Source: Chitinophaga caeni (GTDB lineage: Bacteria; Bacteroidota; Bacteroidia; Chitinophagales; Chitinophagaceae). From it: a stretch of 64,000 bases of DNA. The DNA is taken from positions 5,031,001-5,095,000 of the forward strand of contig NZ_CP023777.1 in assembly GCF_002557795.1 (NCBI RefSeq), written 5' to 3'. A model generated the notes under the pieces. The model was not told the DNA's origin. It saw only the letters and a list, made by a program, of their open reading frames with translations, and made no database searches. Positions 12,168 through 63,757 of the stretch are shown one piece after another. Position numbers and translations under genes: made by a program. Each line of letters opens with the position of its first letter. Position 1 is the stretch's first letter.

Positions 12168-12189
12168 ACCGGGATTCGCGAATCCCGGT
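12168..12189. repeat. 22-bp perfect palindrome with TCGCGA core (site A)
   Basis: Left arm ACCGGGATTCG (12168-12178) is the exact reverse complement of 12179-12189. It forms the left end of the 22-copy array, and its right arm is the first copy of the array unit. It shares length and the TCGCGA core with sites at 15279, 35029 and 63736, although arm sequences differ. Confidence 0.9.
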
Positions 12190-12650
12190 AACAAAAAAAG
12201 CGATTCCCGGTAACAAAAAAGCGAATCCCGGTAACAAAAAAAGCGAATCCCGGTAACAAAAAAAGCGAATCCCGGTAACAAAAAAAGCGAATCCCGGTAA
12301 CAAAAAAAGCGAATCCCGGTAACAAAAAAGCGAATCCCGGTAACAAAAAAGCGAATCCCGGTAACAAAAAAGCGAATCCCGGTAACAAAAAAAGCGAATC
12401 CCGGTAACAAAAAAAGCGAATCCCGGTAACAAAAAAGCGAATCCCGGTAACAAAAAAAGCGAATCCCGGTAACAAAAAAGCGAATCCCGGTAACAAAAAA
12501 GCGAATCCCGGTAACAAAAAAAGCGAATCCCGGTAACAAAAAAAGCGAATCCCGGTAACAAAAAAAGCGAATCCCGGTAACAAAAAAGCGAATCCCGGTA
12601 ACAAAAAAAGCGATTCCCGGTAACAAAAAAGCGAATCCCGGTAACAAAAA
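12179..12650. repeat. Tandem array A, about 22 copies of a 21/22-bp unit
   Basis: Each unit is CGAATCCCGGT plus AAC, a run of six or seven A, and G. Of 22 copies, 12 have seven A and 10 have six, in irregular order. Two copies read CGATTCCCGGT, the second from each end. The array fills the spacer between trmH and nrdA, which converge. All three minus-strand frames stay open through it, while the plus strand meets TAA in one frame. I regard it as non-coding. The first copy is one arm of the palindrome at 12168-12189. Confidence 0.95.
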
Positions 12651-12675
12651 AGGACAACAAAAAATTGCTGTCCTT
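12650..12675 (-). terminator. Intrinsic terminator of nrdBA
   Basis: Stem AAGGACA (12650-12656) pairs with 12669-12675 across a 12-nt A/T-rich loop. On the minus strand it is followed by TTTTTTG, immediately before the repeat array. It lies 36 bp after the nrdA stop. Confidence 0.7.
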
Positions 12676-12710
12676 CATTTCATATTACTACTTGCGATTG
12701 GATAGACAAA

Positions 12711-15086
12711 TTACGCGCTACATGTTACACAACCTTCCTCCATCGTACATACTGCGCCTTCAGGCACCTCAAGGGTTTCACCTTCAGCAGATTTTGCAAC
12801 AACGGGCTCCATGTTCTGACCACCTTGTTTTTCCACGGTAAATTGTACAGCTTGTGCAGCAGCTTGCGTACGTAAATAGTACATACCTGTTTTCAAGCCT
12901 TTCTTCCAAGCGTAGAAGTGCATAGAAGTTAATTTACCGGTAGAAGGTGTATCAACAAAGAGGTTCAAAGATTGAGATTGGCAGATATAAGCACCGCGAT
13001 CAGCAGCCATATCAATCAGGGTACGTTGCTTGATTTCCCAAACAGTTTTGTACAATTCCTTGATATTGGCAGGTATCTCGTTGATTTTTTGGATAGAACC
13101 GTTTGCCGCGATGATCTTATTTTTCATATCATTATCCCACAAACCGAGTTCTACCAAGTCTTTCAACAAATGTTTATTCACGACAACGAACTCTCCGCTC
13201 AATACTCGGCGGGTATAGATATTAGATGTATACGGTTCAAAACATTCATTGTTACCCAAAATTTGCGAAGTGGAAGCAGTAGGCATCGGCGCTACCAATA
13301 AGGAATTGCGCACACCATGTTTCACAACATCATCTTTAAGCGTAGCCCAGTCCCATCTTTCAGTAGGAGTCACACCCCACATGTCAAACTGCATGATTCC
13401 TTTAGACAATGGTGAACCGGCGAATGTTTCATATGCGCCTTCTTTGATGGCTAAATCCTTAGAGGCAGTCATGGCAGCGAAATAAATCGTTTCAAAGATT
13501 TCTTTGTTGAGTTGTTTCGCTTCCTCGCTTTCAAAAGGCAAACGCATCAGGATAAAAGCATCGGCCAAACCTTGCACCCCCAAACCAACCGGGCGGTGAC
13601 GCATGTTGGAATTGCGGGCTTCTTCAACAGGATAATAGTTATAATCGATGATCCTGTTCAGGTTAACTGTTGCCTGGTAAGTTACTTCGTAAAGGCGTTC
13701 ATGATCGAATTGACCTTCATTCACGAAGCGGGGCAATGCGAGTGATGCCAAGTTACAAACCGCCACCTCGTTAGCATCCGTGTACTCGATGATCTCGGTA
13801 CAAAGGTTAGAACTCTTGATAGTCCCGAGGTTTTGCTGGTTAGATTTCGCGTTTGCAGAATCTTTGTATAACAAGTAAGGATTACCAGTCTCGATCTGCG
13901 CTTCCAGGATGGCGAACCATAACTCCTGTGCCTTGACCGTTTTACGGGCGCGACCTTCTTGCTCGTATTGCGTGTATAATTTTTCAAATTCCGGTCCCCA
14001 TGTTTCGTGTAAACCCGGTGCTTCATGCGGGCAGAACAAGCTCCAATCGCCGTCAGACTCCACACGTTTCATAAATAGGTCAGAGATCCACAGTGCATAG
14101 AACAAATCGCGGGCACGTAATTCTTCCTTACCGTGGTTTTTACGCAGGTCCAGGAATTCGAAGACATCGGCATGCCAAGGCTCCAGGTAAATAGCGAAAG
14201 CGCCTTTACGCTTGCCACCACCTTGGTCAACATAACGCGCAGTGTCGTTGAAGACACGCAACATCGGGATGATACCGTTGGAAGTACCGTTGGTACCACT
14301 GATATAGGAACCCGTAGCACGGATATTGTGAATGCTTAAACCGATACCTCCGGCGCTTTGAGAAATTTTGGCTGTTTGTTTCAGCGTATCGTAAATACCT
14401 TCGATGCTGTCGTCTTTCATGCTCAGCAAGAAACAGCTACTCATTTGCGGTTTAGGGGTACCGGCATTAAACAAGGTAGGTGTTGCATGCGTGAACCAAC
14501 GTTCAGACATCAGGTTGTAAGTTTTGATCACGCTCTCGATATCATCTTTATGAATGCCAACAGCCACGCGCATGATCATATGTTGCGGACGCTCGGCGAT
14601 CTTACCGTCAACTTTGAGCAAGTAAGAACGTTCCAAAGTTTTGAAACCAAAATAGTCGTACGCGAAATCACGATCATAAATGATATTAGAATCGAGCGTA
14701 TCCGCATTTTTCTTGATGATTTCATACACCTCATCACTTAATAATGGAGCAGGTTTGCCCACTTTAGGATCGATGTATTCATATAATTTCTTCATCGTTT
14801 TGGAAAACGACTTCGTAGTGTTCTTGTGTAAGTTACTTACCGCGATGCGGGAAGCCAACAAAGCATAATCCGGATGCTTGGTGGTGAGTGATGCGGCTGT
14901 TTCGGCAGCGAGGTTATCCAACTCGGTGGTCGTGACGCCATCGTACAAACCAAGGATCACCTTCTTTGCTACATCTATCGCATCAACATAATCGGGGTTC
15001 AATCCGTAGCACAACTTCTCAATACGTGCCGTAATCTTGTCAAATTTAACAGATTCCTTACGGCCATCTCTTTTAATAACAAACAT
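12711..15086 (-). CDS. nrdA: Ribonucleoside-diphosphate reductase class Ia, alpha subunit
   Basis: Catalytic subunit of 791 residues that reduces ribonucleoside diphosphates for DNA synthesis. Domains in order: ATP-cone (about residues 1-90), the barrel with SSCFLLSM (first redox cysteine), [17 protein letters not shown], the radical-site loop NLCTEI, and VAVCNLAS with the second redox cysteine. The C-terminal tail ends [12 protein letters not shown], supplying the cysteine pair that accepts thioredoxin electrons. The intact ATP-cone implies allosteric control by dATP. It is downstream of nrdB on the same strand, separated by 222 bp that hold tandem array B. A cobalamin riboswitch precedes the pair. 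Confidence 0.96.
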
Positions 15087-15150
15087 ACGCGGTAAATTTT
15101 ATGGGTAGTAATAATATTTTTCAATTGGTATTTGATTGCGCGCCTGTCAT

Positions 15151-15290
15151 GCCTGTCTGCCGAGGTTCGCGGCTGTCTGCCGAGGTTCGCGACTGTCTGC
15201 CGAGGTTCGCGGCTGTCTGCCGAGGTTCGCGACTGTCTGCCGTGGTTCGCGGCTGTCTGCCGTGGTTCGCGGCTGTCTGCCGAGGTTCGC
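15151..15290. repeat. Tandem array B, seven copies of a 20-bp unit in the nrdB-nrdA spacer
   Basis: The unit is roughly GGCTGTCTGCCGAGGTTCGC, with two copies carrying CGTGG for CGAGG and alternating GG/GA junctions. The last copy runs into the palindrome at 15279-15300. The array occupies most of the 222-bp untranslated gap between the nrdB stop (15309) and the nrdA start (15086), so it is transcribed in the nrdBA message. It is far more G+C-rich than its surroundings. Confidence 0.93.
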
Positions 15291-15300
15291 GAACCTCGGC
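15279..15300. repeat. 22-bp perfect palindrome with TCGCGA core (site B)
   Basis: Arm GCCGAGGTTCG (15279-15289) and its reverse complement at 15290-15300. It starts eight bases after the nrdB stop on the transcribed strand, so it would form a stable hairpin directly behind nrdB. Array B continues from it toward nrdA. There is no T-run, so it is not a standard terminator. Confidence 0.9.
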
Positions 15301-15308
15301 TGCAAAAT

Positions 15309-16283
15309 CTAAAAATCTTCATCGAGACTAAACGTCTGGGCATCCTTGTTACCGCCCAAAACGCCGGCTTTTTGATAATCACCGACCCTCTTCTCGAAGA
15401 AGTTCGTTTTACCTTGCAATGAAATCATCTCCATGAAATCAAACGGGTTGGCAGTGTTAAACATTTTCTTACAACCCAGTTCCGACAACCAACGATCCGC
15501 AACGAACTCGATATACTGGCTCATCAACTCGCTATTCATCCCGATCAGGGCAGCAGGTAAAGCATCGATAATAAATTCTTTCTCAATAGCAACGGCATCC
15601 CCGATGATTTCATGCACTTGCGTTTCGGATAATTTTCCTTCCAACATGCTGTATAACAAGCAAGCAAATTCACAGTGCATCCCTTCATCGCGGCTGATCA
15701 ATTCGTTTGAGAAAGTTAAACCCGGCATTAAACCGCGCTTTTTCAACCAGAAGATAGAACAGAAGCTACCGGAGAAGAAAATGCCTTCTACCGCGGCAAA
15801 AGCTACGAGGCGCTCTGCAAAATTCCCGTTCTCAATCCAACGCAAAGCCCATTCTGCTTTCTTCTTCACAGCAGGAACAGTTTCTACGGCGTGGAACAAA
15901 CGGTCTTTCTCTGCCGGATCTTTCACGTAAGTGTCGATCAGCAATGCATATGTTTCGGAGTGAATATTTTCCATCATGATTTGGAAACCGTAAAAACAAC
16001 GGGCTTCCGGGATTTGAACTTCGCTCATGAAGTTCACGGCCAGGTTTTCATTAACAATACCGTCACTAGCAGCGAAAAAAGCTAATACATGGGAAATAAA
16101 ATGACGCTCGCCATCCGACATATTCGCCCAATCTTTTAAGTCGCCGCTCAAATCAATCTCTTCAGCAGTCCAAAAACTAGCCTCATGCCTCTTGTACATT
16201 TCCCAGATCTTGGGATAATTAATCGGTAATAAAACAAACCTGTCTTTGTTTTCTTTTAGAAGTATCTCATTCTCGTTGTTCAT
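15309..16283 (-). CDS. nrdB: Ribonucleoside-diphosphate reductase class Ia, beta subunit
   Basis: Radical-generating subunit of 324 residues. The di-iron ligands are visible: Asp74 (ASDGIV), Glu105 and His108 (MMENIHSE), with the radical tyrosine at 112 ([10 protein letters not shown]). The second ligand set is in EGIFFSGSF and RDEGMHCEF. The pattern ENIHSExY is closer to eukaryotic R2 than to E. coli NrdB. The C-terminus ([10 protein letters not shown]) provides the tail that docks on NrdA. It is the first gene after the cobalamin riboswitch, about 150 bp downstream of the B12 box. Confidence 0.95.
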
Positions 16284-16394
16284 ATAGATAATATTTTTGG
16301 CAACAATGTGTGAAAAAATTCAAATTACTGCCGTTCCCGTACCAGCAAAGAGTACGTGGTAAAAGATTAGGTGATGTACACCCGGGCCAAATAC

Positions 16395-16577
16395 CTTGGA
16401 ACGCGAAGGTTTCGACATAAACGTTGCATTGGCAGGTCTCCTGGCTTTCCTTCCCGGTACCGCACCTTCCCCGTTGGTTAAGCGAGTGGTCAGTGGATTT
16501 TGGGCAACGGATAATGAACCATTCATTATCGGAATCACAGTAGCGCGTCTGCTCGTGAGTTTCACACGATTCCCTTT
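16395..16577 (-). ncRNA. Cobalamin (adenosylcobalamin) riboswitch upstream of nrdBA
   Basis: On the minus strand the region carries the B12 box AGCCAGGAGACCTGCC (16446 down to 16431) and, upstream, the conserved core GTGTGAAACTCACGAGCAG followed by CGCGCTACTGTGA (about 16567 to 16535). These are the hallmark segments of cobalamin aptamers, in the right order and spacing. The next gene is nrdB. The expected effect is repression of nrdBA when adenosylcobalamin is plentiful. The expression platform between the aptamer and nrdB is not obvious; a short CGTAC/GTACG stem near 16347-16365 is a candidate. End coordinates are approximate. Confidence 0.9.
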
Positions 16578-16592
16578 TCATCTCTCTTTGCT

Positions 16593-16627
16593 AAGAACCA
16601 TTGCAACGAAGTCAAGAACTATTGCAA
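16593..16627. repeat. Two direct repeats ahead of the nrdBA riboswitch
   Basis: AAGAACCATTGCAA (16593-16606) and AAGAACTATTGCAA (16614-16627) are 21 bp apart, two helical turns, on the same face of the DNA. They overlap the probable transcription start of the riboswitch-nrdBA unit and may bind a regulator. They do not match the NrdR-box consensus. The rest of the 16633-16891 spacer is AT-rich and shows nothing I can name. Confidence 0.5.
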
Positions 16628-16632
16628 ATGTA
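16625..16632 (-). promoter_or_regulatory. Possible -7 promoter element for riboswitch-nrdBA
   Basis: The minus strand reads TACATTTG, matching the Bacteroidota TAnnTTTG -7 box, about 50 bp upstream of the aptamer. No good -33 TTTG was found at 19-21 bp, so this is tentative. Confidence 0.4.
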
Positions 16633-16891
16633 ATGATCAAGAAATGCCCCGGTCGATAAAGTTGCTAACAGGTGTTAATAAAAGTTTTAAACTTTTTGTG
16701 AAGCTAATAGGGGTAAAGGTTACAGTAATTTTAGTGCCTTTTCATCAACTTTTTTGGCATGGTAATAATTAATAATCTGTAATAAACACATTTTATAGGC
16801 AACAATATTCCATTCATTTTTTCTTACTAAAATGACACTCTCCTTCAATAAGTTATAGCATTTCCTGGATGGACCCCTACCTTGTAAAAAA

Positions 16892-18445
16892 CTAAATCCG
16901 CGGAACCTTATTTTTGAACTTTTCCCGGATTACATCCTGCACGGGCACACCATCAATTTTACTTTCCAGCCAGGAGATAATATCGAGGTAAAGAAAGGAT
17001 CTTCTTTCATATGGATTTTTGGAAAGTTCTACCAAGCGATCTTTTAAATCGATGAATGCTGCCCTTAATGCTTTCGGATGCGCATAAATGTTCTTACGGA
17101 GGAATTTCAATATCTCTTCCATGACCAAACCCAAATCTTTATTCTTGGCAATGAAATGGTAAACGGATTTTATTAAATATTCTACCAGGCTATAATTCTC
17201 CAGTTCATAATGCGCGATCAGGTGTAATATCCTCGCGAAGCATTGGATATCTGCACGCAAATTACCGATACGTAAGTGTATGATTTTATTTAGATAAACA
17301 ATGGCATTATTATTATCCCCGCTACCGAAATACAAACAGGCTATCTTGTAATAAAAAACTAATACACGGTGTTGGTCCACCGTTAATTGGTGCTGGCAAA
17401 TTTGCTCTTCAACCTCGGGAACCAGCGAAAGTCCTTCGGAGAAAGTCCCCATCATGAAATGCTGGTTGATCTTGGCCGTGTAGATATATACAAAAGCGCT
17501 GGTAGCGGTACTTTCATTAAACATATCCTTGTTATTAGCCGTATAATCTTCCAAGGCATGCAAAACGTCTGCAAACCGCTCACCGTTTGCATTGTAAAAG
17601 TGCGCCGTCAGCAAATTATGCATCCCCTTGATATAAAGATCCGGATCATTTTTCTTGAGAGACGGATATTCATCGCATAAGTCCACCCACTTCTGCGTAT
17701 ACCGGTAATACATTAAGAAATCCTGCAAAATATAGTAATACCAGCAATAGGCTTGATAGAAATAAATCTTTTCATAGAAACTCAACTCGGACGGCATATT
17801 AGAATTGAGGCTGATGTCAAAAAAACTCTTGATCATCAACACATCTTTCTCATTGCGGGCATGGCCCAGCTTCAGGTAAAGACCGTACATACGTAAGGCC
17901 AAAGTGGAAAGTCGGCTCACGTTCGTAAGGTGCGCATTGAGCATGATTGATTCCTCGCTCAGTTCATCAGCCCTATTTTCCAAGCTCCGGGTAATGTGCC
18001 GGGATTCGATCAGTTTCTCAAATTCTATAATTTCAAACCAAAGCAGCACTTCCTCCTGTTCCTTGGCACTAGCTTTTGCCTTGGAAAGTAATTTTAAACT
18101 TTGCGTATATAAACCTTTGTTATACAGCACCCTAGCATAATCGATCTGCTCCCTTAAATCGATCATCGGATCTTTCTGCTTGTACAATAAGCGTAAACTT
18201 GTCAATAATTGTTTATATAAATGCGCCTTTACATTTGATAATTGTTGTTTTTTAATCCCGGGCGTTTTTTTCAGCAGTTGCTCCTCATCGTAAGTATTCA
18301 AGCGATCCATCGCGTTGAATAATTGTATGAAAAGTACATCTTCCTTGGAATTATTCTTGTTAAACGCCAACTGAAAATTCCTTTTCTCTGCTTTCGTCAA
18401 GGTTTTTATCAATATAAATAAGGCATCGTTCTGGCTGTTGGGCAT
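16892..18445 (-). CDS. Conserved helical-repeat protein of unknown function
   Basis: A 517-residue cytoplasmic-looking protein with no signal peptide or membrane helix. It is almost wholly alpha-helical, with aromatic-rich helix pairs such as ARVLYNKGLYTQSLKLLSKA and FYYKIACLYFGSGDNNNAIV, spaced like degenerate TPR units. It also has a charged N-terminal part (TLTKAEKRNFQLAFNK). I do not recognise a named family, although similar proteins are common in Bacteroidota. Its neighbours are the nrdBA promoter region and, divergently, the leucine operon; neither suggests a role. A protein-interaction scaffold is the most that the fold implies. Confidence 0.8.
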   Translation of the reverse strand: MPNSQNDALFILIKTLTKAEKRNFQLAFNKNNSKEDVLFIQLFNAMDRLNTYDEEQLLKKTPGIKKQQLSNVKAHLYKQLLTSLRLLYKQKDPMIDLREQIDYARVLYNKGLYTQSLKLLSKAKASAKEQEEVLLWFEIIEFEKLIESRHITRSLENRADELSEESIMLNAHLTNVSRLSTLALRMYGLYLKLGHARNEKDVLMIKSFFDISLNSNMPSELSFYEKIYFYQAYCWYYYILQDFLMYYRYTQKWVDLCDEYPSLKKNDPDLYIKGMHNLLTAHFYNANGERFADVLHALEDYTANNKDMFNESTATSAFVYIYTAKINQHFMMGTFSEGLSLVPEVEEQICQHQLTVDQHRVLVFYYKIACLYFGSGDNNNAIVYLNKIIHLRIGNLRADIQCFARILHLIAHYELENYSLVEYLIKSVYHFIAKNKDLGLVMEEILKFLRKNIYAHPKALRAAFIDLKDRLVELSKNPYERRSFLYLDIISWLESKIDGVPVQDVIREKFKNKVPRI

Positions 18446-18557
18446 CGTTGAAAGATGTTTATAAAATACTAGTTATCAATTCATTACATCCTCTAAAGGG
18501 CGGTTGTATATCGTAAATAGATGAAAAGTCACCATATACCGTAAGGCTGTTGACCGT

Positions 18558-18565
18558 TAGATTTG
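18558..18565 (+). promoter_or_regulatory. Possible -7 promoter element for the leu operon
   Basis: TAGATTTG matches TAnnTTTG, 79 bp before leuC. The -33 region is not convincing. The 198-bp spacer between the divergent genes shows no leucine-rich leader peptide or terminator hairpin. Confidence 0.3.
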
Positions 18566-18643
18566 AGTAAACGTTATCGAAGTTACCGATTATTACAAAA
18601 ATAGGAAACGGCATACAAAAGCAAATACTAAAGTAATTTACGA

Positions 18644-20047
<1,404 letters not shown>

Positions 20048-20057
20048 AATTAAACTT

Positions 20058-20810
20058 ATGTGGAACGCAACTTTATATAAAGAACAGCACGCCTTCGTAT
20101 TCGAATATGGTAATGACCTCCTTTCGTGGTTAGATCCCAAGGAAGGGGAGCATATACTGGACGTAGGTTGCGGTACAGGAGAATTAACGGCCAAGATCGC
20201 CGAACCTGGAGCGATCGTTACAGGGATCGACCAATCCCCGGAAATGATCGAAAGCGCCCGCAGCCACTATCCTGAACTCCGCTTCGAAGTAGCAGACATC
20301 ACGGAATTAAGCTTGGGCCAAGAGTACGATGCCATCTTTTCAAACGCTACCCTCCATTGGGTCCTGGAAAAGGAAAAAGCCGCAGCTCAAATGCGCAGGC
20401 ATCTTAAACCCGGCGGCAGGCTGGTTTTAGAAATGGGGGGATTGAATAATGTAAAGTCGCTATCAGATGCCGTAAGCAAGGAATTGTTGAAAAGCAATTA
20501 CGCCTTTCCCGCGGTATGGTACTTCCCTTCTGCAGCCCGGTATACGACCGTTTTGGAACACCAAGGATTAACGATCAGGAAAGTAATGTACTTCGACCGG
20601 GAAACGGAACTGAAAGACGGCGAAAATGGCATCGTGGAATGGTTGGAAATGTTTGGCGGTCATTTCTTCGTGAATGTACCCCCGGCCGAAAAACAACGCA
20701 TCATGTACACCGTGCAAGAGAACCTGCGACCCACACATTTCCGTGACGGTAAATGGTTCCTCGATTATAAACGCTTGCGTATCCACGCCGAAAGACCGGC
20801 AAGTCATTAA
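20058..20810 (+). CDS. Class I SAM-dependent methyltransferase between leuC and leuD
   Basis: A 250-residue Rossmann-fold methyltransferase. Motif I is ILDVGCGTGELT, followed by the acidic residue in VTGIDQSP and the post-II segment AIFSNATLHWV. The overall pattern, with N-terminal MWNATLYKEQHAFVFEYG, resembles trans-aconitate methyltransferases (E. coli Tam, yeast Tmt1). Yeast Tmt1 also methylates 3-isopropylmalate, and this gene sits inside the isopropylmalate isomerase pair, 10 bp after leuC and 31 bp before leuD. A role in repairing or diverting a leucine-pathway acid is therefore plausible but unproven. General small-molecule or ubiquinone-type methyltransferases share these motifs. Confidence 0.8.
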   Translation: MWNATLYKEQHAFVFEYGNDLLSWLDPKEGEHILDVGCGTGELTAKIAEPGAIVTGIDQSPEMIESARSHYPELRFEVADITELSLGQEYDAIFSNATLHWVLEKEKAAAQMRRHLKPGGRLVLEMGGLNNVKSLSDAVSKELLKSNYAFPAVWYFPSAARYTTVLEHQGLTIRKVMYFDRETELKDGENGIVEWLEMFGGHFFVNVPPAEKQRIMYTVQENLRPTHFRDGKWFLDYKRLRIHAERPASH

Positions 20811-20841
20811 TTATTAAACAGAACAAGGAAGTAAAAATATT

Positions 20842-21441
20842 ATGGATAAAACTTTTAAGAACCTGGTGTCAACGGTAGTACCCGTTCCAATTGAAAATAT
20901 CGACACGGATCAGATTATCCCGGCACGTTTCCTAAAAGCCACGACCAGGGATGGTTTTGGTGAAAACTTATTCCGCGATTGGCGCTATAACGAAGATGGT
21001 TCTCCCAAACCGGATTTCGTGCTGAACAACCCTATCTATAGCGGGGAAATCCTAGTAGCAGGCAAGAACTTCGGTTGCGGTTCTTCGCGGGAACACGCGG
21101 CTTGGGCCATCGGTGATGCCGGGTTCAAAGTTGTAGTGAGCAGCTTCTTTGCCGATATCTTCAAGAACAATGCCTTGAACAACTTCATCCTTCCGGTACA
21201 GGTAACCGATGAATATTTAAATAAAATTTTTACAGCGGTGGAAGCCGATCCCAAAGCTACCCTTTCCGTAGACTTGGAAGCGCAAACCATCACGATCACC
21301 AGCACGGGGGAATCGGCACAATTCGACATCAATCCTTATAAGAAGACTTGTTTGTTGAACGGTTATGATGATATCGATTACCTGCTGAACCTCCGCCCGG
21401 AAATTGAAAATTACGAAGCTAGCAGACCATTTAATTTCTAA
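20842..21441 (+). CDS. leuD: 3-isopropylmalate dehydratase, small subunit
   Basis: Swivel-domain partner of LeuC, 199 residues. Family motifs are [14 protein letters not shown] and the substrate-binding loop [15 protein letters not shown]. The C-terminus [18 protein letters not shown] matches the family. It lies 31 bp after the methyltransferase and 31 bp before leuB, in the same operon. Confidence 0.95.
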
Positions 21442-21472
21442 TCCTACAACGCATTTATAAGAATCAACGAAC

Positions 21473-22552: not shown

Positions 22553-22594
22553 TAACACCAATTTTAGCAGCCTTTCAACATAAAATTTCAAACA

Positions 22595-24100: not shown

Positions 24101-24140
24101 CCGAGAGAAATCGCGGAAATATAATCTATGCACAAAATGA

Positions 24141-32249: not shown

Positions 32250-32268
32250 CACGCAGTTCTTAAACATT

Positions 32269-32380
32269 ACTTATCCAGAAAGGCTGAGGGACTGGCCCTT
32301 TGAAGCCTTAGCAACCATTCCAAGCATAGCTTGAAATAAGGTGCTAATTCCGGCTCCGGTATACCCGGGGGTAGATAAGT
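32269..32380 (+). ncRNA. SAM-I (S-box) riboswitch
   Basis: The aptamer is closed by ACTTATC (32269-32275) and GATAAGT (32374-32380). Inside are the core elements in order: GAGGGACTGGCCC, TTTGAAGCC, TTAGCAACC, AAGGTGCTAATTCC and a GGCTCCGG-type stem. Together they define the SAM-I family. It binds S-adenosylmethionine and represses downstream methionine genes. A terminator follows (32424-32453), then metB and hom. Confidence 0.95.
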
Positions 32381-32423
32381 TGGCAGACAAAATTATTTAA
32401 CAAGCAATCAGCATAAATTTTTG

Positions 32424-34967: not shown

Positions 34968-35001
34968 CACCAGTATGATCAATCATACTGGTGTTTTTTT
35001 T
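34968..35001 (+). terminator. Intrinsic terminator of metB-hom
   Basis: Perfect 10-bp stem CACCAGTATG (34968-34977) with 34984-34993, loop ATCAAT, followed by eight T. Confidence 0.9.
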
Positions 35002-35028: not shown

Positions 35029-35050
35029 GCCAAGGGTCGCGACCCTTGGC
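35029..35050. repeat. 22-bp perfect palindrome with TCGCGA core (site C)
   Basis: Arm GCCAAGGGTCG (35029-35039) and its reverse complement at 35040-35050. It stands alone, without a tandem array, between the convergent hom and maf genes and after the hom terminator. Short direct repeats (GATTTGTTGGATTGCTGATC region) follow it. Confidence 0.9.
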
Positions 35051-50359: not shown

Positions 50360-50365
50360 ACCCTT

Positions 50366-51758: not shown

Positions 51759-51900
51759 TTGTTGAATATTATTTAAGTAAATTCGTTCCTGATTCAGCTT
51801 GCAAAAATAAAAGATTCTGAGCAATACCCGGTGATAGTATTGAGGAATATGCTTAAAACGTTTAGATTTGCGGGGCTTTTACCGGATTAGATCAATAAAG

Positions 51901-53840: not shown

Positions 53841-53853
53841 GAATGCAAAACTA

Positions 53854-54594: not shown

Positions 54595-54692
54595 GATGAA
54601 TGATTTTATGTTGATCTAAATATAACTAATTCTAAAACAACGTAGTTCAAATAAAATTTTACCCATACAACAATTAAAAAACAACAAATATT

Positions 54693-55661
54693 ATGGCGGA
54701 AAACACATTTAATGCCGGCCCTACCGGTCCATCTTCGTCAGGACAAGAAAAACCGAGTAACAACAAGAATGGTATCATCTACGGTGTATTAATCGCCGCA
54801 TTACTGGGTACCTGGGGATACATGTTCTACAGCAGGAGCCAAACATCCCAACAATTAAATCAACAAGAATTAACTATCGATACCATCACTACTGCCCGTG
54901 ACGAGTTGTATAGCCAATTCCAAGCAACCAACGCACGAATCGATGAATTGATCTCCCAAAATACCCGTATGGATAGCCTTGTTAAAACCAAGGATAAGGA
55001 GATTCAGGACATGAAAGCCAGGATCAGCAGTATCCTTGGAAACAAGAATGCTACGCAGGCTGAACTAGCGGAAGCCCGCAGGCTCATCGAACAATATAAG
55101 TCCAACATCGAATCTTACACTGCTACTATCGAAAGATTGGAAGGTGAAAAGATCGTATTAACCGGCGAACGTGATGTTGCCAGGAAAGAAAGAGATTCTG
55201 TTCAGACTTTGAAAGAAGACCTTGATAAGAAAATCGATCTCGGTTCCGTTCTACATGCTTCTAACATCAAGTTGACACCTTTGCGTTTGAAAGGTAGCAA
55301 GGAGATTGAAACCTCCAAAGCTAAGAAAGCGGATATGATGCGCGTGACCTTTGATTTAGATGAAAACAGGATCGCGCCAACCGGCGATAAGGAAATCTAT
55401 GTTGCTATCACGGCTCCGGATGGAACACCGTTAGCAGTAGAAGCCCTGGGCAGCGGTAAATTCACGCTGGAAGACGGTACTGAAAAATTATACACCGTTA
55501 AACAAACCATAGCTTATACCCAAGGAGAAAAAGCTGCCGTGAAAATGGATTGGAAACAAAATTCTGATTTCAAGGTGGGCGACTATAACGTTGAAATTTA
55601 CCATGACGGTTTTAAAATCGGTCAAGGTAAAGTAACCTTGAGAAAAGGCGGTTTATTTTAA
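54693..55661 (+). CDS. Single-pass membrane protein with coiled coil, function unknown
   Basis: A 322-residue protein. After a low-complexity N-terminus (TFNAGPTGPSSSGQE) comes one membrane helix (GIIYGVLIAALLGTWGYMFY), then a long coiled coil (about residues 50-190, with heptads such as SQNTRMDSLVKTKDKEIQDM). The C-terminal domain of about 120 residues is rich in beta-strands (DMMRVTFDLDENRIAP, EIYVAITAPDG). I recognise only a general resemblance to Bacteroidota envelope proteins. It is monocistronic with a terminator. Confidence 0.78.
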   Translation: MAENTFNAGPTGPSSSGQEKPSNNKNGIIYGVLIAALLGTWGYMFYSRSQTSQQLNQQELTIDTITTARDELYSQFQATNARIDELISQNTRMDSLVKTKDKEIQDMKARISSILGNKNATQAELAEARRLIEQYKSNIESYTATIERLEGEKIVLTGERDVARKERDSVQTLKEDLDKKIDLGSVLHASNIKLTPLRLKGSKEIETSKAKKADMMRVTFDLDENRIAPTGDKEIYVAITAPDGTPLAVEALGSGKFTLEDGTEKLYTVKQTIAYTQGEKAAVKMDWKQNSDFKVGDYNVEIYHDGFKIGQGKVTLRKGGLF

Positions 55662-55690
55662 GCTGAACGGAAATCATACTATATAAATCT

Positions 55691-55721
55691 AAACGCGGTT
55701 CTCAAAAGGGGCCGCGTTTTT
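55691..55721 (+). terminator. Intrinsic terminator
   Basis: Stem AAACGCGG (55691-55698) pairs with CCGCGTTT (55712-55719), followed by T. The remaining spacer to 56069 is AT-rich. A TAATTTTG box at 55813-55820 is a weak promoter candidate, and I see no gene there. Confidence 0.8.
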
Positions 55722-56069
55722 TCGTGCAAATGATTCCCGCTGGTTTGGATAAAAAATCGTTATGACTACAGAATGTTAGGATCACCTATAAATTAAATGC
55801 CCGGAATAAGTCTAATTTTGCTGGCTTTGTCAGCAGGCAGCAATAATATAACGAAAAATTGTTAAATATTAGTTATCGGATATAAAACATATATATTTTA
55901 ATTTAAAATTAACTTTCTTTGCAATAAATACAGAAATGCGATCTAAAAAATGCCATTTTTTGAAAAAAATTTAAACCATTGCTTGTTGAACAAAGCAAAA
56001 CTGCCAGATCTATTGAAAGTCCCCAACATGATTCTTGAGCTAAAGAACATTTGATAACTAAATTATATC

Positions 56070-56468
56070 ATGGCACACAAGCAGAAGAAGGTCTATGTAA
56101 TAGATGACGACGAAATTTTTCATTTCATCATTAAAAAGATGTTTGGGTTGCAAGGTTGGGATGTGACAATATCATCATTTTTATGTGCGGAAGAAGCGAT
56201 TGCAGCATTAGAGGAAGACCCGGTTGCAAGTAATTTGCCTACTTTAATCATCCTGGACATGAATATGCAAAGGATGAATGGCTGGGAGTTTATCGAGGCT
56301 TACAAGGTATTAAAAACTAAAACGGGGCGGGAAGTACCAATCATTATGTGTTCGTCGAGTACGAACATATCTGACCTTGAAAAAGTGAAGGAGATCCCGG
56401 AGTTGAGGGAATATATTACCAAACCCCTCGACAAGCAAAAAATGAAACTGATAGCCACTTACTTGTAA
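56070..56468 (+). CDS. Single-domain response regulator (CheY-like receiver)
   Basis: A 132-residue stand-alone receiver. The acidic pocket is VIDDDEIFHF, the phospho-aspartate is in IILDMNMQRMNGW, the Thr/Ser switch in IIMCSSSTN and the conserved lysine in YITKPLD. No output domain is attached, and no kinase or partner gene is near. It may pass signals through protein contacts or serve as a phosphate sink. Confidence 0.88.
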   Translation: MAHKQKKVYVIDDDEIFHFIIKKMFGLQGWDVTISSFLCAEEAIAALEEDPVASNLPTLIILDMNMQRMNGWEFIEAYKVLKTKTGREVPIIMCSSSTNISDLEKVKEIPELREYITKPLDKQKMKLIATYL

Positions 56469-56506
56469 AAAGTACACAGATCACCCACCTATGTCCAACA
56501 ATTAAG

Positions 56507-56549
56507 AAAGGATAAGGGATATTTTCCAAGCAAAATACCCTTATCCTTT
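56507..56549. terminator. Bidirectional terminator with a long stem
   Basis: AAAGGATAAGGG (56507-56518) pairs with 56538-56549, extended inward by an ATTTT/AAAAT helix. It lies between the convergent response-regulator and ABC-F genes, 36 bp from the ABC-F stop. Confidence 0.85.
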
Positions 56550-56584
56550 CTCTTTCTTTATGCAGATTTGATATTCTAAGTAAA

Positions 56585-58258
<1,674 letters not shown>

Positions 58259-58377
58259 TTACAAAAAAATAGTGGCATGCCTAGGATATTCGAGAATTGT
58301 TATATGCTTAACATATTAAACAATTTTCCTGTATGCTTGTTAGGCCATTATAGATCTTTCACGCTAAAAAAATCCAT

Positions 58378-58938
58378 ATGTTCCATCAAATTGCACAAAA
58401 CTGGTGGTTATTCATCCTAAGGGGTGTATTTGCCATATTATTCGGCTTAATAGCCTTTTTCTGGCCGGGCATCACCATACAGGTGTTAACCATCTTCCTG
58501 GGCGCCTTTCTTTTGGTGGACGGCGTTTTTGCTTGTTATAACGGGATAAAGATCAGGAAGAGCGATTCCCAGTACTGGGTCCTCATCCTGGAAGGCCTCC
58601 TGGGTATTGCCGCCGGCTTGGTTGTTTTCTTCTGGCCTGGACCGACCGTTATTTTCCTCATTTACATGTTAGCATTTTGGGCCATATTTACCGGGGTGCT
58701 CGAGATCATCGTGGCAATTAAATGGCGTAAAGAGATGGAAAACGAATGGATGTTGATATTGGCAGGGGTATTATCTATCGTGTTGGGAATACTCTTCTTA
58801 GCGCAACCTATTGCCGGGGCCATCGTGATAGCGTACTGGTTAGGAATTTACGCGGGCATCTTCGGGATAATGTTAATTATGGTGGGAATACGCTTGAATA
58901 AATACTTGAAAACGCATCCAAATCATTATCCTTCATAA
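58378..58938 (+). CDS. HdeD-family membrane protein (DUF308)
   Basis: A 186-residue integral membrane protein with six hydrophobic helices in three pairs, each pair carrying a repeat such as WPGITIQVLTIFLGAFLLVD and WPGPTVIFLIYMLAFWAIFT. This triplicated pattern is typical of DUF308/HdeD proteins, named after an acid-resistance gene of E. coli. Function here is unknown. A terminator follows. Confidence 0.85.
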   Translation: MFHQIAQNWWLFILRGVFAILFGLIAFFWPGITIQVLTIFLGAFLLVDGVFACYNGIKIRKSDSQYWVLILEGLLGIAAGLVVFFWPGPTVIFLIYMLAFWAIFTGVLEIIVAIKWRKEMENEWMLILAGVLSIVLGILFLAQPIAGAIVIAYWLGIYAGIFGIMLIMVGIRLNKYLKTHPNHYPS

Positions 58939-58965
58939 TGGAGAATACCGGTCGTATCTGAATTG

Positions 58966-58996
58966 TAATCCCCGGTACTGCAAATACCGGGGATTA
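58966..58996. terminator. Bidirectional terminator
   Basis: Perfect 12-bp stem (TAATCCCCGGTA at 58966-58977 with 58985-58996), 7-nt loop, between the convergent HdeD and mechanosensitive-channel genes. Confidence 0.85.
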
Positions 58997-59002
58997 ATAA
59001 TT

Positions 59003-59815
59003 TTAGGCCTGCATCACTTTCGCCGTTACAGGACCTTTAATATCATGCGCTACCAAGGCTTTCCTGATATTTTGATTCGCATCGAAGAAAACCGGCCAGT
59101 AATCCCCGGTTTTGGTTCTTGCCCGGACGGAAATAACCATATTGTTATCTTCGTAAGAAGTGATAAATACCTGGATCGGTGGATCTTCCAATATCCTGTC
59201 GTCCTGCTTCAGCTCATCGATCACCACCTGTTTCACTTTTTCAAAATCTTCATCGAATGGCACTTTCACCGTGATATTAGCCATCAGCATGCCGGTTCGG
59301 CTGGCGTTGATAATATTTCCGTTTGCGACGGCACCATTTGGTAAGATGGCGATCTTTCCATCTCCCGTGCTTAATATGGTGTTGAATATTTGAATTTCAG
59401 TAACTACGCCCGTGATTCCCTGTACGGTAACCACTTCCCCGACTCTAAAAGGTTTAAACATCAATATCAATACGCCCCCGGCGAAATTTGCCAAACTCCC
59501 TTGCAAGGCTAAACCGATTGCCAATCCTGCCGCACCGATAACGGCAATTAAGGAAGTGGTTTGAAAACCTATCATCCCGGCAGCGGAGATGATCAACAGT
59601 ACTTTCAGTCCAACGCTGACCAAGCTCCCGAGGAATGTTTGCAAAGACACATCGGCTTCCCGCTTCTCCAATATCCTTTGCAGCATCTTGTTGAGCTTCT
59701 TGATGATCCAAAACCCGATAACGAGGGTCAAGATAGCCCCGATTACCCTCGGGGTAAATTCCCCTGCCCACAGCACCAGCTTGTCGATATAAGTTTGCAA
59801 ATTTGAAACGTTCAT
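59003..59815 (-). CDS. Small-conductance mechanosensitive channel (MscS family)
   Basis: A 270-residue inner-membrane channel with three N-terminal helices. The pore-lining helix is glycine/alanine-rich (GAAGLAIGLALQGSLANFAG, then GGVLILMFKPFRVGEVV). After it come the beta domain (VTEIQIFNTILSTGDGKIAI, LPNGAVANGNIINASRTG) and the C-terminal alpha/beta domain. MscS channels open under membrane tension to release solutes during osmotic downshock. It is of standard MscS length and monocistronic. Confidence 0.92.
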   Translation of the reverse strand: MNVSNLQTYIDKLVLWAGEFTPRVIGAILTLVIGFWIIKKLNKMLQRILEKREADVSLQTFLGSLVSVGLKVLLIISAAGMIGFQTTSLIAVIGAAGLAIGLALQGSLANFAGGVLILMFKPFRVGEVVTVQGITGVVTEIQIFNTILSTGDGKIAILPNGAVANGNIINASRTGMLMANITVKVPFDEDFEKVKQVVIDELKQDDRILEDPPIQVFITSYEDNNMVISVRARTKTGDYWPVFFDANQNIRKALVAHDIKGPVTAKVMQA

Positions 59816-59897
59816 AATGTTTTTAATGAATAATGTTCCAAGCAGACAAATTGTTCATACACGGCTGTGAAAGCTGATAAAATGACCTCAATAAAAA

Positions 59898-59925
59898 GGC
59901 CGGGCGCTTATTATAAGACCCGGCC
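59898..59925 (-). terminator. Terminator of the S9 peptidase gene
   Basis: Stem GGCCGGG (59898-59904) with CCCGGCC (59919-59925) and an inner CTTA/TAAG helix. On the minus strand it is followed by TTTTTAT, 22 bp after the peptidase stop. Confidence 0.8.
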
Positions 59926-59946
59926 AAATAAACTTCATGTTGAAAA

Positions 59947-62073
59947 CTATTTTGTTATCCCTTCCAGGTCGAGGAAGAAAGCGTATTGCAAGGCTACTTC
60001 TTTCAAGGCTTTAAACCTTCCCGATGCGCCACCATGCCCGGCATCCATGTTAATTTTAAACAGCAGTAAATGTTGATCTGTTTTCATTTCCCGGAGTTTG
60101 GCGACCCATTTAGCCGGTTCAAAATATTGCACTTGTGAATCATGTAGACCCGTGGTAACTAAAATATTAGGATAATTCTGTGCCTTTACATTATCATACG
60201 GTGAATAAGATTTCATGTAATCGTACGAGTCCTTGTTATTAGGATTTCCCCATTCATCGTATTCGCTCGTCGTTAATGGAATCGAAGCATCCAACATCGT
60301 AGTAACAACATCTACAAAAGGTACCGCGGCAATTACACCATGCCATAACTCGGGCCGCATGTTGATTACGGCGCCAATCAATAAGCCACCGGCGCTTCCT
60401 CCCAATGCATACAAATGGTTGGAAGAAGTATATTTATTGGCAATTAAATAGTCGGCACAATCTATAAAATCGGTGAAAGTATTCTTCTTCTTGAACATTT
60501 TCCCATCTTCATACCATTGGCGTCCCATTTCCTGTCCACCGCGTATATGGGCAATTGCATAAGCAAATCCCCTATCGAGCAAGCTAATCCGGTTTGAGTT
60601 GAAACCTGCTTCCGTTGAATTACCATAAGAACCGTAGCCATACAACAGGAGCGGCCCGTTGCCGTCTTTATGGAACCCTTTCTTATATACGATAGAGATA
60701 GGAACTTCGGTACCATCCTTTGCTTTGGCATATAACCGTTCCGTTGTATAATTTTTAGGATCGTAACCGCCTAAGACTTCTTGTTGTTTTTTCAATTCTT
60801 TAGCGCGTGTTTCCATGTTATAATCGAAAGTCGAGTTGGGCGTCACCATGGAAGCATAGCTGTAGCGGAGCAGCTTCGTATCGTATTCGGGATTTCCATA
60901 TATCATGGCAACGTAAGCCGGTTCCCCGAAGTCAATGTAATGTTCTTGTTGGCTGTTGCTGTTGATAATTCTCAGCTGGATAAGCCCCCTTTTGCGCTCC
61001 TGTAAAACGAGGTAATCTTTGAATAACAAAAACTCTTCAAGCAAAACATCATCCCGGTGTGGAATCAGGTCTTTCCAGTTAGATTTGGCCGTTTGATTTT
61101 CCTGGCAAACCATTAACCTGAAATTCTTAGCTTCCCAATTCGTTTGGACATAAAATTGGCCTTCTTTATGATCCAGGTAATAGAGCATGTCTTTTTGGCG
61201 AGGCTGAAACACTGTAAAGTTCAGGCCAGGCTTATCGGCAGGTAAAATTCTTGCTTCGGATGAAAGTGTGCTTTCCGAATTGATAACAAGGAACTTCTTC
61301 GAACGCGTTTTCGACAAATAAACGCTATAAGTGCTGTCATCCTCGAAATACACATTCTTATCTTGTTCGGCAGTTTGTCCCAAGATATGTTGTTTAACGC
61401 GGTCGCTACGGAGCGTAGCGGTGTCCTTTGTTACGTAATACAATGTTTTGTTGTCATTGGCCCAAACTAAGTTACCGGTAGCTTCAGGAAGTGCTACGGG
61501 ATAGGTTTCCCCGGTTTCCAAGTTTTTAAAATGAATCTTGTAACGCCTTCTGCCAACATCATCAACAGCATAAGCCAGCACCTGGTTATCAGGGCTTACT
61601 TTCAATCCCGCTACGCTGAAGAACTCGTGTCCTTCCGCCAGTTCATTTACATCGAGGATCACCTCTTCCGGCGCTTCCAAGGTTCCCTTCTTACGGCAAT
61701 GAATTGGGTATTCTTTACCTTTTTCATAACGGGCATATAAATAGTACCCGTTATCGAAGGTGGGGACGCTTTCATCCGTTTCCTTGATGCGGCCTTTCAT
61801 TTCGTTAAATAGCTTTTCCTGCAAGTGTTTGGTATGCGACATCACCGTGTCTACATAAGCGTTTTCAGCTTCCAGGTAGCGGAGTACTGCCGGGTTATCC
61901 CTTTCATTGAGCCAGTAATAATTGTCGATACGGACATCTCCATGTGCCACGAGCTCTTTCGGTTTCTTTTCTACAGTCGGGGGCGGAATCTTCATATAAT
62001 CTTTGTTTTGTTGGGTCGAACTATTACAGGCGCAAAGTACTACAATGGCCAAAATTGGAGCTAATTGTTTCAT
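59947..62073 (-). CDS. S9-family prolyl oligopeptidase, oligopeptidase B type, lipoprotein
   Basis: A serine peptidase of 708 residues with a lipoprotein signal (MKQLAPILAIVVLCAC). An N-terminal beta-propeller (about residues 80-420) precedes the alpha/beta-hydrolase domain. The nucleophile serine is in ALGGSAGGLLIGAVI, the oxyanion region includes YGYGSYGNSTEAGFN, and the catalytic histidine is in MDAGHGGASGRF. It resembles oligopeptidase B, which cleaves short peptides after basic residues. The lipid anchor places it in the periplasm or outer membrane, unlike cytosolic PtrB. Confidence 0.9.
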   Translation of the reverse strand: MKQLAPILAIVVLCACNSSTQQNKDYMKIPPPTVEKKPKELVAHGDVRIDNYYWLNERDNPAVLRYLEAENAYVDTVMSHTKHLQEKLFNEMKGRIKETDESVPTFDNGYYLYARYEKGKEYPIHCRKKGTLEAPEEVILDVNELAEGHEFFSVAGLKVSPDNQVLAYAVDDVGRRRYKIHFKNLETGETYPVALPEATGNLVWANDNKTLYYVTKDTATLRSDRVKQHILGQTAEQDKNVYFEDDSTYSVYLSKTRSKKFLVINSESTLSSEARILPADKPGLNFTVFQPRQKDMLYYLDHKEGQFYVQTNWEAKNFRLMVCQENQTAKSNWKDLIPHRDDVLLEEFLLFKDYLVLQERKRGLIQLRIINSNSQQEHYIDFGEPAYVAMIYGNPEYDTKLLRYSYASMVTPNSTFDYNMETRAKELKKQQEVLGGYDPKNYTTERLYAKAKDGTEVPISIVYKKGFHKDGNGPLLLYGYGSYGNSTEAGFNSNRISLLDRGFAYAIAHIRGGQEMGRQWYEDGKMFKKKNTFTDFIDCADYLIANKYTSSNHLYALGGSAGGLLIGAVINMRPELWHGVIAAVPFVDVVTTMLDASIPLTTSEYDEWGNPNNKDSYDYMKSYSPYDNVKAQNYPNILVTTGLHDSQVQYFEPAKWVAKLREMKTDQHLLLFKINMDAGHGGASGRFKALKEVALQYAFFLDLEGITK

Positions 62074-62145
62074 AACAACTTTTTGGGACTATGCTAAATT
62101 TAAAGAATCTAATTGAAAAATGACATGGATTTATTAGCATAAAAA

Positions 62146-62175
62146 AACCTGCTACCCATAGGCGGGAAGCAGGTT
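62146..62175 (-). terminator. Terminator of the Gfo/Idh/MocA gene
   Basis: Stem AACCTGCT (62146-62153) with AGCAGGTT (62168-62175) and an inner CCC/GGG pair, followed on the minus strand by TTTTTTT. Confidence 0.85.
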
Positions 62176-62198
62176 GGTTTCAAAATATGTTAAAAGGA

Positions 62199-63581
62199 TC
62201 AGGAGATAAGCATCTTGGTTGGGTTCCAATCGATCACCTTCTTTTTGAAATAACTTTCATTTACTGCCAATGCTGGTCCGGCGGCTCTCAGGCCAAAGGT
62301 TGCATCTTCAACGATCGGTTTACCGTTTCGCATTGCTTCAAAAAAGTTAACGAAATGATCGTAGCGATCATCATAGCCTTTAGGCGCCGCATAACTACTT
62401 TCTTCGAACTTGCCTTTAGCAGCATTCGCGTATTTCTCATTATAAGACTTAATGAATGCCTTTTTCTCCGCTTCGGTGAAGGTATTGAAAGTATCCCATC
62501 CACCGTAGCCGGGTGCTTCGGGAAGTTTATGTTGTTTCATCTTGAAATCGTTCCAGCCGAGTTCAATCACGCCTTCTGTTCCGATTAAACGGGTATATTC
62601 TCCGCCGCCGCCGCCATCTGCAAAGTTCACGCGCAGATTCATTTGGAAGGCAGGATGCGTATCGGTTTCAGGATAATCGAATATGGCAACCATAACATCC
62701 GGTACATCGCGGCCATCGATCCATTGCACCAAATTTCCGCTAGAGAAAATCCTATTGGGGCCCTCGGAATCGATCATGAAATGTAAACCGGAAATCAGGT
62801 GTACGAATAAATCTCCCGGCACGCCGGTTCCATAGGCCTGGTAGTTTCTCCAACGGAAGAAACGAACCGGGTCGAACGGTGTTTTGGGCGTATCCTTGAG
62901 GAAGGTGTCGTAATCAACTGTTTTGGGTGAAGCATCTGTAGGGATAGAGTATTCCCAGGCGCCTAAAGCGGAATGGCGATCAATTTTGGCTTCTACAAAA
63001 TTCAATTTACCGATAGCACCGGATTGATACAATTTCTTGGCTTCGGCCAATGCCACGCTGCTTACCCTTTGACTGCCTACTTGGAAAACAGCATTGGTGG
63101 CCTTTTGCGTCTTTATCACTTCATGTCCTTCGGAAATTTGCTGAACCATCGGTTTTTCACAATACACCGCTTTCCCCTTCTTCATGGCTTCGATGGAAAT
63201 AGTATCGTGCCAATGATCCGGGGTAGCGATTACAACCGCGTCAATGTCTTTCCTATCGAGTATTTCGCGGTAATCCCTGGTGGTATATATCTGCTGACCG
63301 TACACTTCTTTAGCATGTTCAAGGTGACCGGTATATAAATCTGCAACACCAACCAGTTCCACACCGGGAACCCGGAGTGCGCAAGAAATATCACCGAAGC
63401 CCATGATACCCATGCCGATACCGGCGATCCTGATTTTATCGTTCGAGCTAACAGGTTTTTGTCCGGGGAGTATGGTTTGTGGAATGGGCTTAGCAGCTAA
63501 GCCTGAAAGTGACCCCGCCCCCAGTGCAGCGGCCGTGGTACCAAGCTGCTGGAGGAATTTTCTACGAGAATTATTGGGCAT
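62199..63581 (-). CDS. Tat-exported Gfo/Idh/MocA-family oxidoreductase
   Basis: A 460-residue protein with a twin-arginine signal (MPNNSRRKFLQQLGTTAAAL, then GAGSLSGLAA). The nucleotide-binding domain has IRIAGIGMGIMGFGDI, VVIATPDHWHDTI and the catalytic AVYCEKPMVQQIS (EKP motif). The C-terminal alpha/beta domain has GDLFVHLISGLHFMIDSEGP. Family members oxidise or hydrolyse sugars and inositols, and secreted Bacteroidota forms with this layout are often glycan-active. No sugar-uptake genes flank it, so the substrate is open. The frame runs to 63764 through array D, but the Tat signal fixes the start at 63581. Confidence 0.9.
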   Translation of the reverse strand: MPNNSRRKFLQQLGTTAAALGAGSLSGLAAKPIPQTILPGQKPVSSNDKIRIAGIGMGIMGFGDISCALRVPGVELVGVADLYTGHLEHAKEVYGQQIYTTRDYREILDRKDIDAVVIATPDHWHDTISIEAMKKGKAVYCEKPMVQQISEGHEVIKTQKATNAVFQVGSQRVSSVALAEAKKLYQSGAIGKLNFVEAKIDRHSALGAWEYSIPTDASPKTVDYDTFLKDTPKTPFDPVRFFRWRNYQAYGTGVPGDLFVHLISGLHFMIDSEGPNRIFSSGNLVQWIDGRDVPDVMVAIFDYPETDTHPAFQMNLRVNFADGGGGGEYTRLIGTEGVIELGWNDFKMKQHKLPEAPGYGGWDTFNTFTEAEKKAFIKSYNEKYANAAKGKFEESSYAAPKGYDDRYDHFVNFFEAMRNGKPIVEDATFGLRAAGPALAVNESYFKKKVIDWNPTKMLIS

Positions 63582-63691
63582 ATTAGAAAGATTTAGAGTT
63601 CTAAAAGTTAGGAAGATGTACCCAATTATGCAAACAAGTGTACCATTCGGACTAGATAGAAGGGTTGACAGGTGGATAAATGGTAAATCGC

Positions 63692-63745
63692 GATTGGCAG
63701 GACGGTCTCGATTGGCAGGACGGCCGAGACTGGCAGGACGGCCTC
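63692..63745. repeat. Tandem array D, three copies of an 18-bp unit
   Basis: The units are GATTGGCAGGACGGTCTC, GATTGGCAGGACGGCCGA and GACTGGCAGGACGGCCTC; the last one enters the palindrome at 63736-63757. A TCGCGAT sequence at 63688-63694 precedes the array. The array lies in the 240-bp spacer between sdhB and the Gfo/Idh/MocA gene. Confidence 0.9.
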
Positions 63746-63757
63746 GCGAGGCCGTCC
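63736..63757. repeat. 22-bp perfect palindrome with TCGCGA core (site D)
   Basis: Arm GGACGGCCTCG (63736-63746) and its reverse complement at 63747-63757, at the end of array D. It has the same length and core as sites at 12168, 15279 and 35029. Confidence 0.9.

Follow-up and report, generated by a model that had tools for sequence, protein, structure and literature searches.

Introduction

RAYT enzymes and REPs are widespread. The definition and classes of REPs have been set out (PMC3686654), and the described forms include the 'double foot' REPs of Bacteroidetes and Cyanobacteria, in-frame REPs in genes of subclass 2.4 and, at Bacteroidetes genes of subclass 2.6, structures that are atypical (PMC6006769; this and the other reports are cited for the parts of their text that were available). 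In vitro work on three pairs has addressed which hairpin features the enzyme reads: with perfect palindromic REPs, TnpAREP was strict at loop positions and stem mismatches were harmful, stem blocks could be swapped to their complement with modest effect, and changes of GTAG were largely tolerated, GTAG being described as crucial for E. coli TnpAREP (PMC8266576). Modified REPs were reported to keep their palindromic features, "suggesting selection for complementary mutations" (PMC2817692).

Here, we describe a family of perfect palindromes with the centre TCGCGA, dispersed over one bacterial genome, and regard them as probable REP-like hairpins belonging to a RAYT-type system, with the double-foot REPs as their nearest counterpart. 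The first-pass annotation of this DNA had known no named element with such a form, a statement that has to be amended as double-foot REPs are already published (PMC6006769). In the literature as far as its text was available, our search found no description of the TCGCGA family or of a REP family with stems so varied in one genome.

Palindromes and tandem arrays in the window

The window, i.e., the whole stretch of 64,000 nt that was analysed, covers positions 5,031,001-5,095,000 of the host genome, a single contig with 5,279,921 bases. Its only perfect palindromes of at least 20 bp are four TCGCGA-centred sites, and at three of the four a short tandem array of half-copies, missed by the first-pass annotation, ends at the palindrome:

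12167..12190, no strand assigned: 24-bp perfect palindrome TACCGGGAT-TCGCGA-ATCCCGGTA, 3 bp past the stop codon of an SpoU-type methylase gene, closing one end of the next array
12178..12651, minus strand: tandem array of 22 copies of a 22-bp unit, the units being half-elements (half-core, arm and spacer)
15153..15291, plus strand: tandem array of 6.9 copies of a 20-bp half-element unit, between two ribonucleotide reductase genes
15279..15300, no strand assigned: 22-bp perfect palindrome GCCGAGGT-TCGCGA-ACCTCGGC, closing array 15153..15291
35029..35050, no strand assigned: 22-bp perfect palindrome GCCAAGGG-TCGCGA-CCCTTGGC, without array, convergent genes on both sides, left foot GTGG
63691..63746, plus strand: tandem array of 3.1 copies of an 18-bp half-element unit
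63736..63757, no strand assigned: 22-bp perfect palindrome GGACGGCC-TCGCGA-GGCCGTCC, closing array 63691..63746

Genes neighbouring these sites are those for the SpoU methylase, both ribonucleotide reductase genes, and the genes for homoserine dehydrogenase, Maf and an oxidoreductase. The window holds 15 TCGCGA words, so that about 0.0002 palindromes of at least 22 bp would be expected there by chance. Single strands of the sites (five strands from four sites) fold as DNA into a stem of 9 to 12 bp with a CGCG loop, with z from -3.7 to -4.8. The TCGCGA centre and the perfect dyad symmetry claimed by the first-pass annotation are thus confirmed at all four sites, and its "exactly 22-bp" length is not, the first site having 24 bp and the family as a whole ranging from 20 to 42 bp.

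Assignment of the palindromes to an Rfam RNA family was rejected, since the only matches in the window that reach the gathering score are a cobalamin riboswitch (16414-16617, minus strand), located upstream of the gene for the small subunit of ribonucleotide reductase, and a SAM riboswitch (32268-32381, plus strand). Carriage by plasmids was likewise dismissed, the first array having no match in plasmid records.

Extent of the family in the host genome

The genome-wide scan called for by the first-pass annotation returned 31 distinct TCGCGA-centred sites, all of them perfect palindromes, against about 0.05 TCGCGA palindromes of at least 20 bp expected by chance in the whole genome. The covariance model used was built from 29 of these sites, two being new, and the search scored 87 of 309 candidates in the host genome, so the list of 31 is possibly incomplete. 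Many dispersed intergenic hairpin copies are a mark of RAYT/REP systems, and the 31 sites, with gene context seen for 25, conform to it. Across 1.659 Mb of host genome (80 stretches and the window, with L099 and L118 positioned with prior knowledge of a match), TCGCGA is the centre of 13 of the 20 perfect palindromes of at least 22 bp, no other centre being found more than twice. The covariance model, which is mismatch-tolerant, retrieved 14 sites from these 1.659 Mb, namely 13 perfect ones and one (L063) whose stem is perfect and whose core is TCTCGA instead of TCGCGA. Genome-wide, the outer three bases were self-complementary in 24 of 24 matches to SSSTCGCGASSS, and the reversed control pattern gave 5 matches. 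Chance origin was discarded on the grounds of these counts.

Two identical palindromes of 32 bp with the same flanks lie 344 bp apart in one stretch (L116:18334-18365 and 18678-18709), apparently as a result of recent duplication.

Fixed core, paired arms and a degenerate foot

The TCGCGA core is fixed, and the arm before it follows the consensus G-S-N-N-G-G-G-S, with G at arm positions 2 and 3 in 25 of 29 cases and at position 8 in 24 of 25. Within this frame the 31 sites carry 29 different 7-nt inner arms with no mismatched pair among 217, a count biased by the fact that the sites were found as perfect palindromes; the free middle positions pair at every one of them. Two tests independent of this selection point in the same direction: among TCGCGA words generally, the matching of arms is either full or at chance level, and a pattern made of the left half only gave 26 strand-hits, 24 of which are full palindromes, so that half-sites waiting to become palindromes could be set aside. 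Selection for pairing rather than for one fixed sequence, as proposed in the first-pass annotation, is therefore upheld by the arm counts as well as by the independent tests, and its description of the arms as unrelated needs correction, given that they have a G-rich pattern in common, as well as a foot of GY(N)G type, only the middle bases being free.

As to the foot, TG[CT] occurs outside the arm on 45 of 62 flanks against 14.2 expected, and G[CT][AG]G (the GYRG foot) on 31 of 62 against 5.7 expected, 27 of the latter occurrences starting at one fixed offset. The canonical foot of RAYT/REP systems, exact GT[AG]G in register, is present at only 10 of 62 feet, a point against a RAYT-type system; GYNG is present at 33 of 62, which corresponds to both feet in 10 of the 31 sites and at least one foot in 23. 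One stem family per transposase, the rule for RAYT/REP systems, is likewise not what is found, as 29 arms are distributed over 31 copies, though with the G-rich consensus in common.

Half-copy arrays beside the palindromes

In 25 of 31 sites a tandem array (TRF score of at least 50, unit of at least 10 bp) touches the palindrome or lies within 20 bases of it, and at some sites arrays with different spacers are found on both sides. Requiring a match at 7 of 8 bases within 120 bases, half-copies pointing at the palindrome are present in 27 of 31 sites and those of opposite orientation in 2, with 74 and 2 copies, respectively. Under the looser requirement of 6 of 8 bases the figures become 28 versus 18 sites and 113 versus 28 copies, and the stricter counts are preferred since the looser ones find opposite-orientation copies at 18 of the 31 sites.

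Array units carry the locus-specific arm of their own palindrome. Among 27 loci with at least three units, 23 have no arm position at which at least 75% of the units share a base that differs from the palindrome's, and the four that have such a position have it only at the two core-proximal positions; to enter this comparison a unit needed 6 of 8 bases in common with the arm, a requirement that itself promotes agreement. Thus, the arrays probably grew from the local copy once its arm was set. The idea of a mechanism that keeps rewriting the arms gains little from the same 23 of 27 loci, and continuous rewriting after array formation was dropped, the four deviating loci doing so at core-proximal positions only.

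One might ask if any dedicated enzyme is needed, since slippage combined with template-switch correction could both make and mend palindromes, the transposase neighbour described below being then coincidental. The half-copy arrays around the hairpins do resemble products of slippage, and perfect arms without intermediates would fit template-switch correction; this correction, however, works on the arms and spares the loop, which should then be the most variable part, whereas the core is observed to be fixed and the arms to vary, with the single TCTCGA exception. Nor does the side on which the arrays lie show a clear bias with respect to fork direction (15 at entry, 11 at exit and 5 equal), for which reason slippage directed by the replication fork was rejected, and the occurrence of the same core at homologous transposases would be left unexplained. 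An origin without an enzyme is accordingly rated as very improbable, and a RAYT-type system is retained as the preferred reading.

A Y1 transposase beside one site and its homologues

Two Y1_Tnp genes are present in the host genome. One of them lies at 1.276 Mb and encodes a protein of 161-164 aa. Its start is about 145 bp downstream of the palindrome at 1,275,616, which is flanked by arrays on both sides; this is the arrangement characteristic of RAYT/REP systems, a Y1 HUH gene with a REP-like hairpin in its flank, and a rough calculation puts the chance of such adjacency, with any of the 31 sites and either of the 2 genes, at about 0.01. The protein scores above the Pfam Y1_Tnp cut-off (28.7 versus 23 bits) and below that of NCBIfam REP_Tyr_transpos (59.1 versus 80 bits), the latter being a point against a RAYT-type system. 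In an alignment of eight homologues the two HUH histidines, a W and the Tyr are invariant, and the profile of this alignment matches E. coli TnpAREP 4er8 with E 4e-10; the 161-164 aa protein alone as query gave no match to 4er8. The 161-164 aa protein is the likely partner enzyme of the palindromes. The second Y1 gene (L344:1381-1935, at 2.74 Mb) lies above the NCBIfam REP_Tyr_transpos cut-off (86.5 versus 80 bits), and after it comes a cluster of unrelated repeats.

Matches to the 161-164 aa protein with E of at most 0.001 were obtained in only 2 of 78 congeners (32% and 27% identity). Some match, mostly weak, is present in 86 (host included) of 394 sampled genomes of the family. Two homologues, G558 and G702, belong to other genera than the host and have TCGCGA palindromes with exact GTAG feet. 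In G558, the best other homologue (45% identity), GTAGGGACAGG-TCGCGA-CCTGTCCCTAC sits within the reading frame, at a place between HUH and Tyr; the host's own Y1 gene has no in-frame REP. In G702 a 64-bp TCGCGA palindrome containing GTAGGGACAGG-TCGCGA-CCTGTCCCTAC is followed by a half-copy array and then by the gene, an order identical to that in the host, and the gene has an in-frame stop codon, so this transposase copy may be inactive. The transposase that the first-pass annotation suggested looking for is thus found next to a palindrome, and its guess at a RAYT/REP-like system gains support from this neighbourhood and from the same palindrome at G558 and G702.

TCGCGA palindromes are confined to these two among 30 homologue loci, which counts against a RAYT-type system, and nine others have palindromes of at least 20 bp with other centres. 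Altogether, 12 palindromes of at least 20 bp occur in 97 kb around the 30 homologues (11 of 30 loci) versus 8 in 1,425 kb of control loci, the controls being the surroundings of another gene in another set of taxa. One 3.5-kb locus of G702 contains GTAGAGACGCAATGCATTGCGTCTCTAC as four identical palindromes and a 20-bp partial one with half-copies beside them, and another G702 locus has the outer arms of GTAGAGACGCAATGCATTGCGTCTCTAC with a different centre. Half-copy arrays are therefore not unique to the host genome, and, compared with the GTAGAGACGCAATGCATTGCGTCTCTAC family, the variety of stems around a fixed centre in the host is unusual.

Distribution in relatives

The family is rare within the genus. 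GGGTCGCGACCC has 9 copies in the host and at most one in any of 78 congeners or of the 59 other genomes in a family sample of 60; counts in the other 394 genomes of a phylum sample of 395 range from 0 to 2. Inspection of the surroundings of 25 loci outside the host revealed eight (L119, L121-L123, L129-L132) without a TCGCGA palindrome of at least 18 bp and 17 (L288-L304) with a palindrome of 12 to 16 bp. The covariance model, run on congeners with stricter filters under which weak matches can be lost, found single sites in three of 78 (G105, G131 and G115). That of G105 (L326, L341:6588-6609) is a 22-bp TCGCGA palindrome, AGATAGGTTCGCGAACCTATCT, with degenerate half-copies; this genome has no match to the 161-164 aa transposase, a further point against a RAYT-type system, though it is only 80% complete. 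The G131 site has the TCGCGA core followed by a T run as in a terminator, and the G115 site differs in its loop and also has a T run. One 22-bp TCGCGA palindrome (L230) was encountered in the 1.43 Mb surrounding NrdB in 80 relatives. The 29 methylase and 29 NrdB loci returned from congeners, where orthologous sites would lie, contain no palindrome of at least 18 bp.

Gene context and chromosomal position

Among 25 sites examined for gene context, 17 could be classed, seven lie within ORFs (array artefacts in several cases) and one is at a stretch end. Eleven of the 17 are between convergent genes, compared with 193 of 964 gaps (binomial 8e-5), and in many cases a stop codon is less than 100 bp away. 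Such intergenic placement is what RNA hairpins serving as two-way transcription terminators or as protectors of mRNA 3' ends would show, and the site at 763,144 is indeed followed by five T on one strand; no other of the 62 site ends, however, has four or more T immediately behind the hairpin, which led us to reject intrinsic terminators. Ordinary hairpin-plus-T terminators adjoin some of the sites (34968-34999 in the window). RNA stems would moreover tolerate G.U pairs, yet neither wobble nor mismatched stems appeared even in the tolerant model search of 1.659 Mb, and in this respect the host stems also differ from published GTAG REPs, for which G.T pairs are described as frequent and convergent and 3' placement is reported too (PMC3733652). 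A function at the RNA level hence appears hardly likely.

The origin is placed near 1.24 Mb by the skew switch and the terminus near 3.8 Mb by GC skew. Only one of the 31 sites falls within 3.05-5.03 Mb, the arc holding the terminus (binomial 9e-6, rising to 9e-5 if convergent gaps are used as weights, with arc limits set post hoc). This near absence is not predicted by the RAYT/REP-like model; it would be accounted for if the palindromes were operator-like sites for a chromosome-organising or nucleoid-occlusion DNA-binding protein in the manner of SlmA or Noc. Sites of that kind would combine depletion near the terminus with a fixed duplex sequence, and it is only the depletion that is seen. 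A protein binding the duplex needs no complementarity at bases that it does not read, whereas the free middle positions are paired at every site, and the tandem half-sites together with rarity within the genus fit a mobile element better than an operator. The operator explanation is on these grounds improbable. Close to the skew-defined origin there is a perfect 26-bp palindrome (L083:543-568, host 1,235,543-1,235,568) that contains TGTTCCACGTGGAACA, a sequence (~1,235,555) that we take to be parS-like and that, with the skew switch, was used to place the origin.

Comparison with known systems and a possible mechanism

Returning to the RAYT-type system, the host family resembles the double-foot REPs of subclass 2.4, in so far as these are described in the available text (PMC6006769), by the Y1 HUH gene beside a palindrome, dispersed intergenic copies and perfect stems and, in part, by a foot at both ends of some copies (10 of 31) and a REP within the open frame of one homologue (G558) between HUH and Tyr, the host's own gene lacking it. 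It is unlike them in stems that differ in almost all copies (29 arms in 31), in a degenerate foot (GYNG, seldom GTRG), in a fixed six-base centre, and in half-copy arrays beside 25 of 31 sites. With Group 3 TnpAREP it shares a constraint that fits loop-specific, pairing-dependent recognition with a tolerant foot; stems of the latter are defined families probed by mutation, and the variation in the host is natural and known from sequence (PMC8266576, available part). As this published in vitro pattern matches that of the host, it was counted in favour of a RAYT-type system. IS200/IS605 elements belong to the same enzyme superfamily and share recognition of hairpins on single strands (PMC6006769, PMC8266576, as far as available), and they differ from the host gene locus, where 3.2 kb contain one palindrome of at least 14 bp, palindromes alone being compared. 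BIMEs and REPINs have in common with the host that REPs are amplified in local clusters, but they alternate whole REPs, whereas host clusters consist of tandem half-elements pointing at one palindrome.

The sites are likely, on sequence grounds, to work like a RAYT/REP system. Strict membership is not claimed, since there is neither one stem per family nor the canonical foot, and one curated cut-off is missed. Our reading is that of a RAYT/REP-like system near the double-foot type, with loop and pairing held constant and stem sequence left free. We infer that the sites are mobilised, and the following course of events may be envisaged. In single-stranded DNA, for instance at the replication fork, a site would fold into a hairpin in which a T.A pair closes CGCG; recognition by the enzyme would depend on loop, foot and the presence of pairing rather than on the bases of the stem, and the enzyme would nick and rejoin DNA beside the hairpin. 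Copies with a broken stem or loop would cease to be substrates or be lost, and stems that stay paired could drift freely. Tandem half-copies would arise later and separately at each locus, by slippage or by repeated copying from the hairpin, as array units carrying the same locus-specific arm suggest.

The family raises two questions, namely by what route both sides of a stem change when no intermediates are visible, and for what reason the terminus arc is avoided. For the first, the stem might be written in one step at the birth of an element, the local arm being copied into its own complement around TCGCGA, which we regard as rather doubtful; of similarly low probability is the accompanying suggestion that copying is done by the enzyme or by repair after its cut at the core. 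Were one-step writing true, new hairpins with new stems would keep arising, and REP families would diversify without slow paired mutations. In any case, some thirty natural substrates with constant centre and pairing and varied stems would make the recognition rule directly readable and testable.

A second type of double-foot palindrome, GTAGAG-NN-AAGGCATGCCTT-NN-CTCTAC, exists in the host in two copies (L071:6023-6050 and L322:19460-19487), and both of its free positions differ between the copies yet are complementary.
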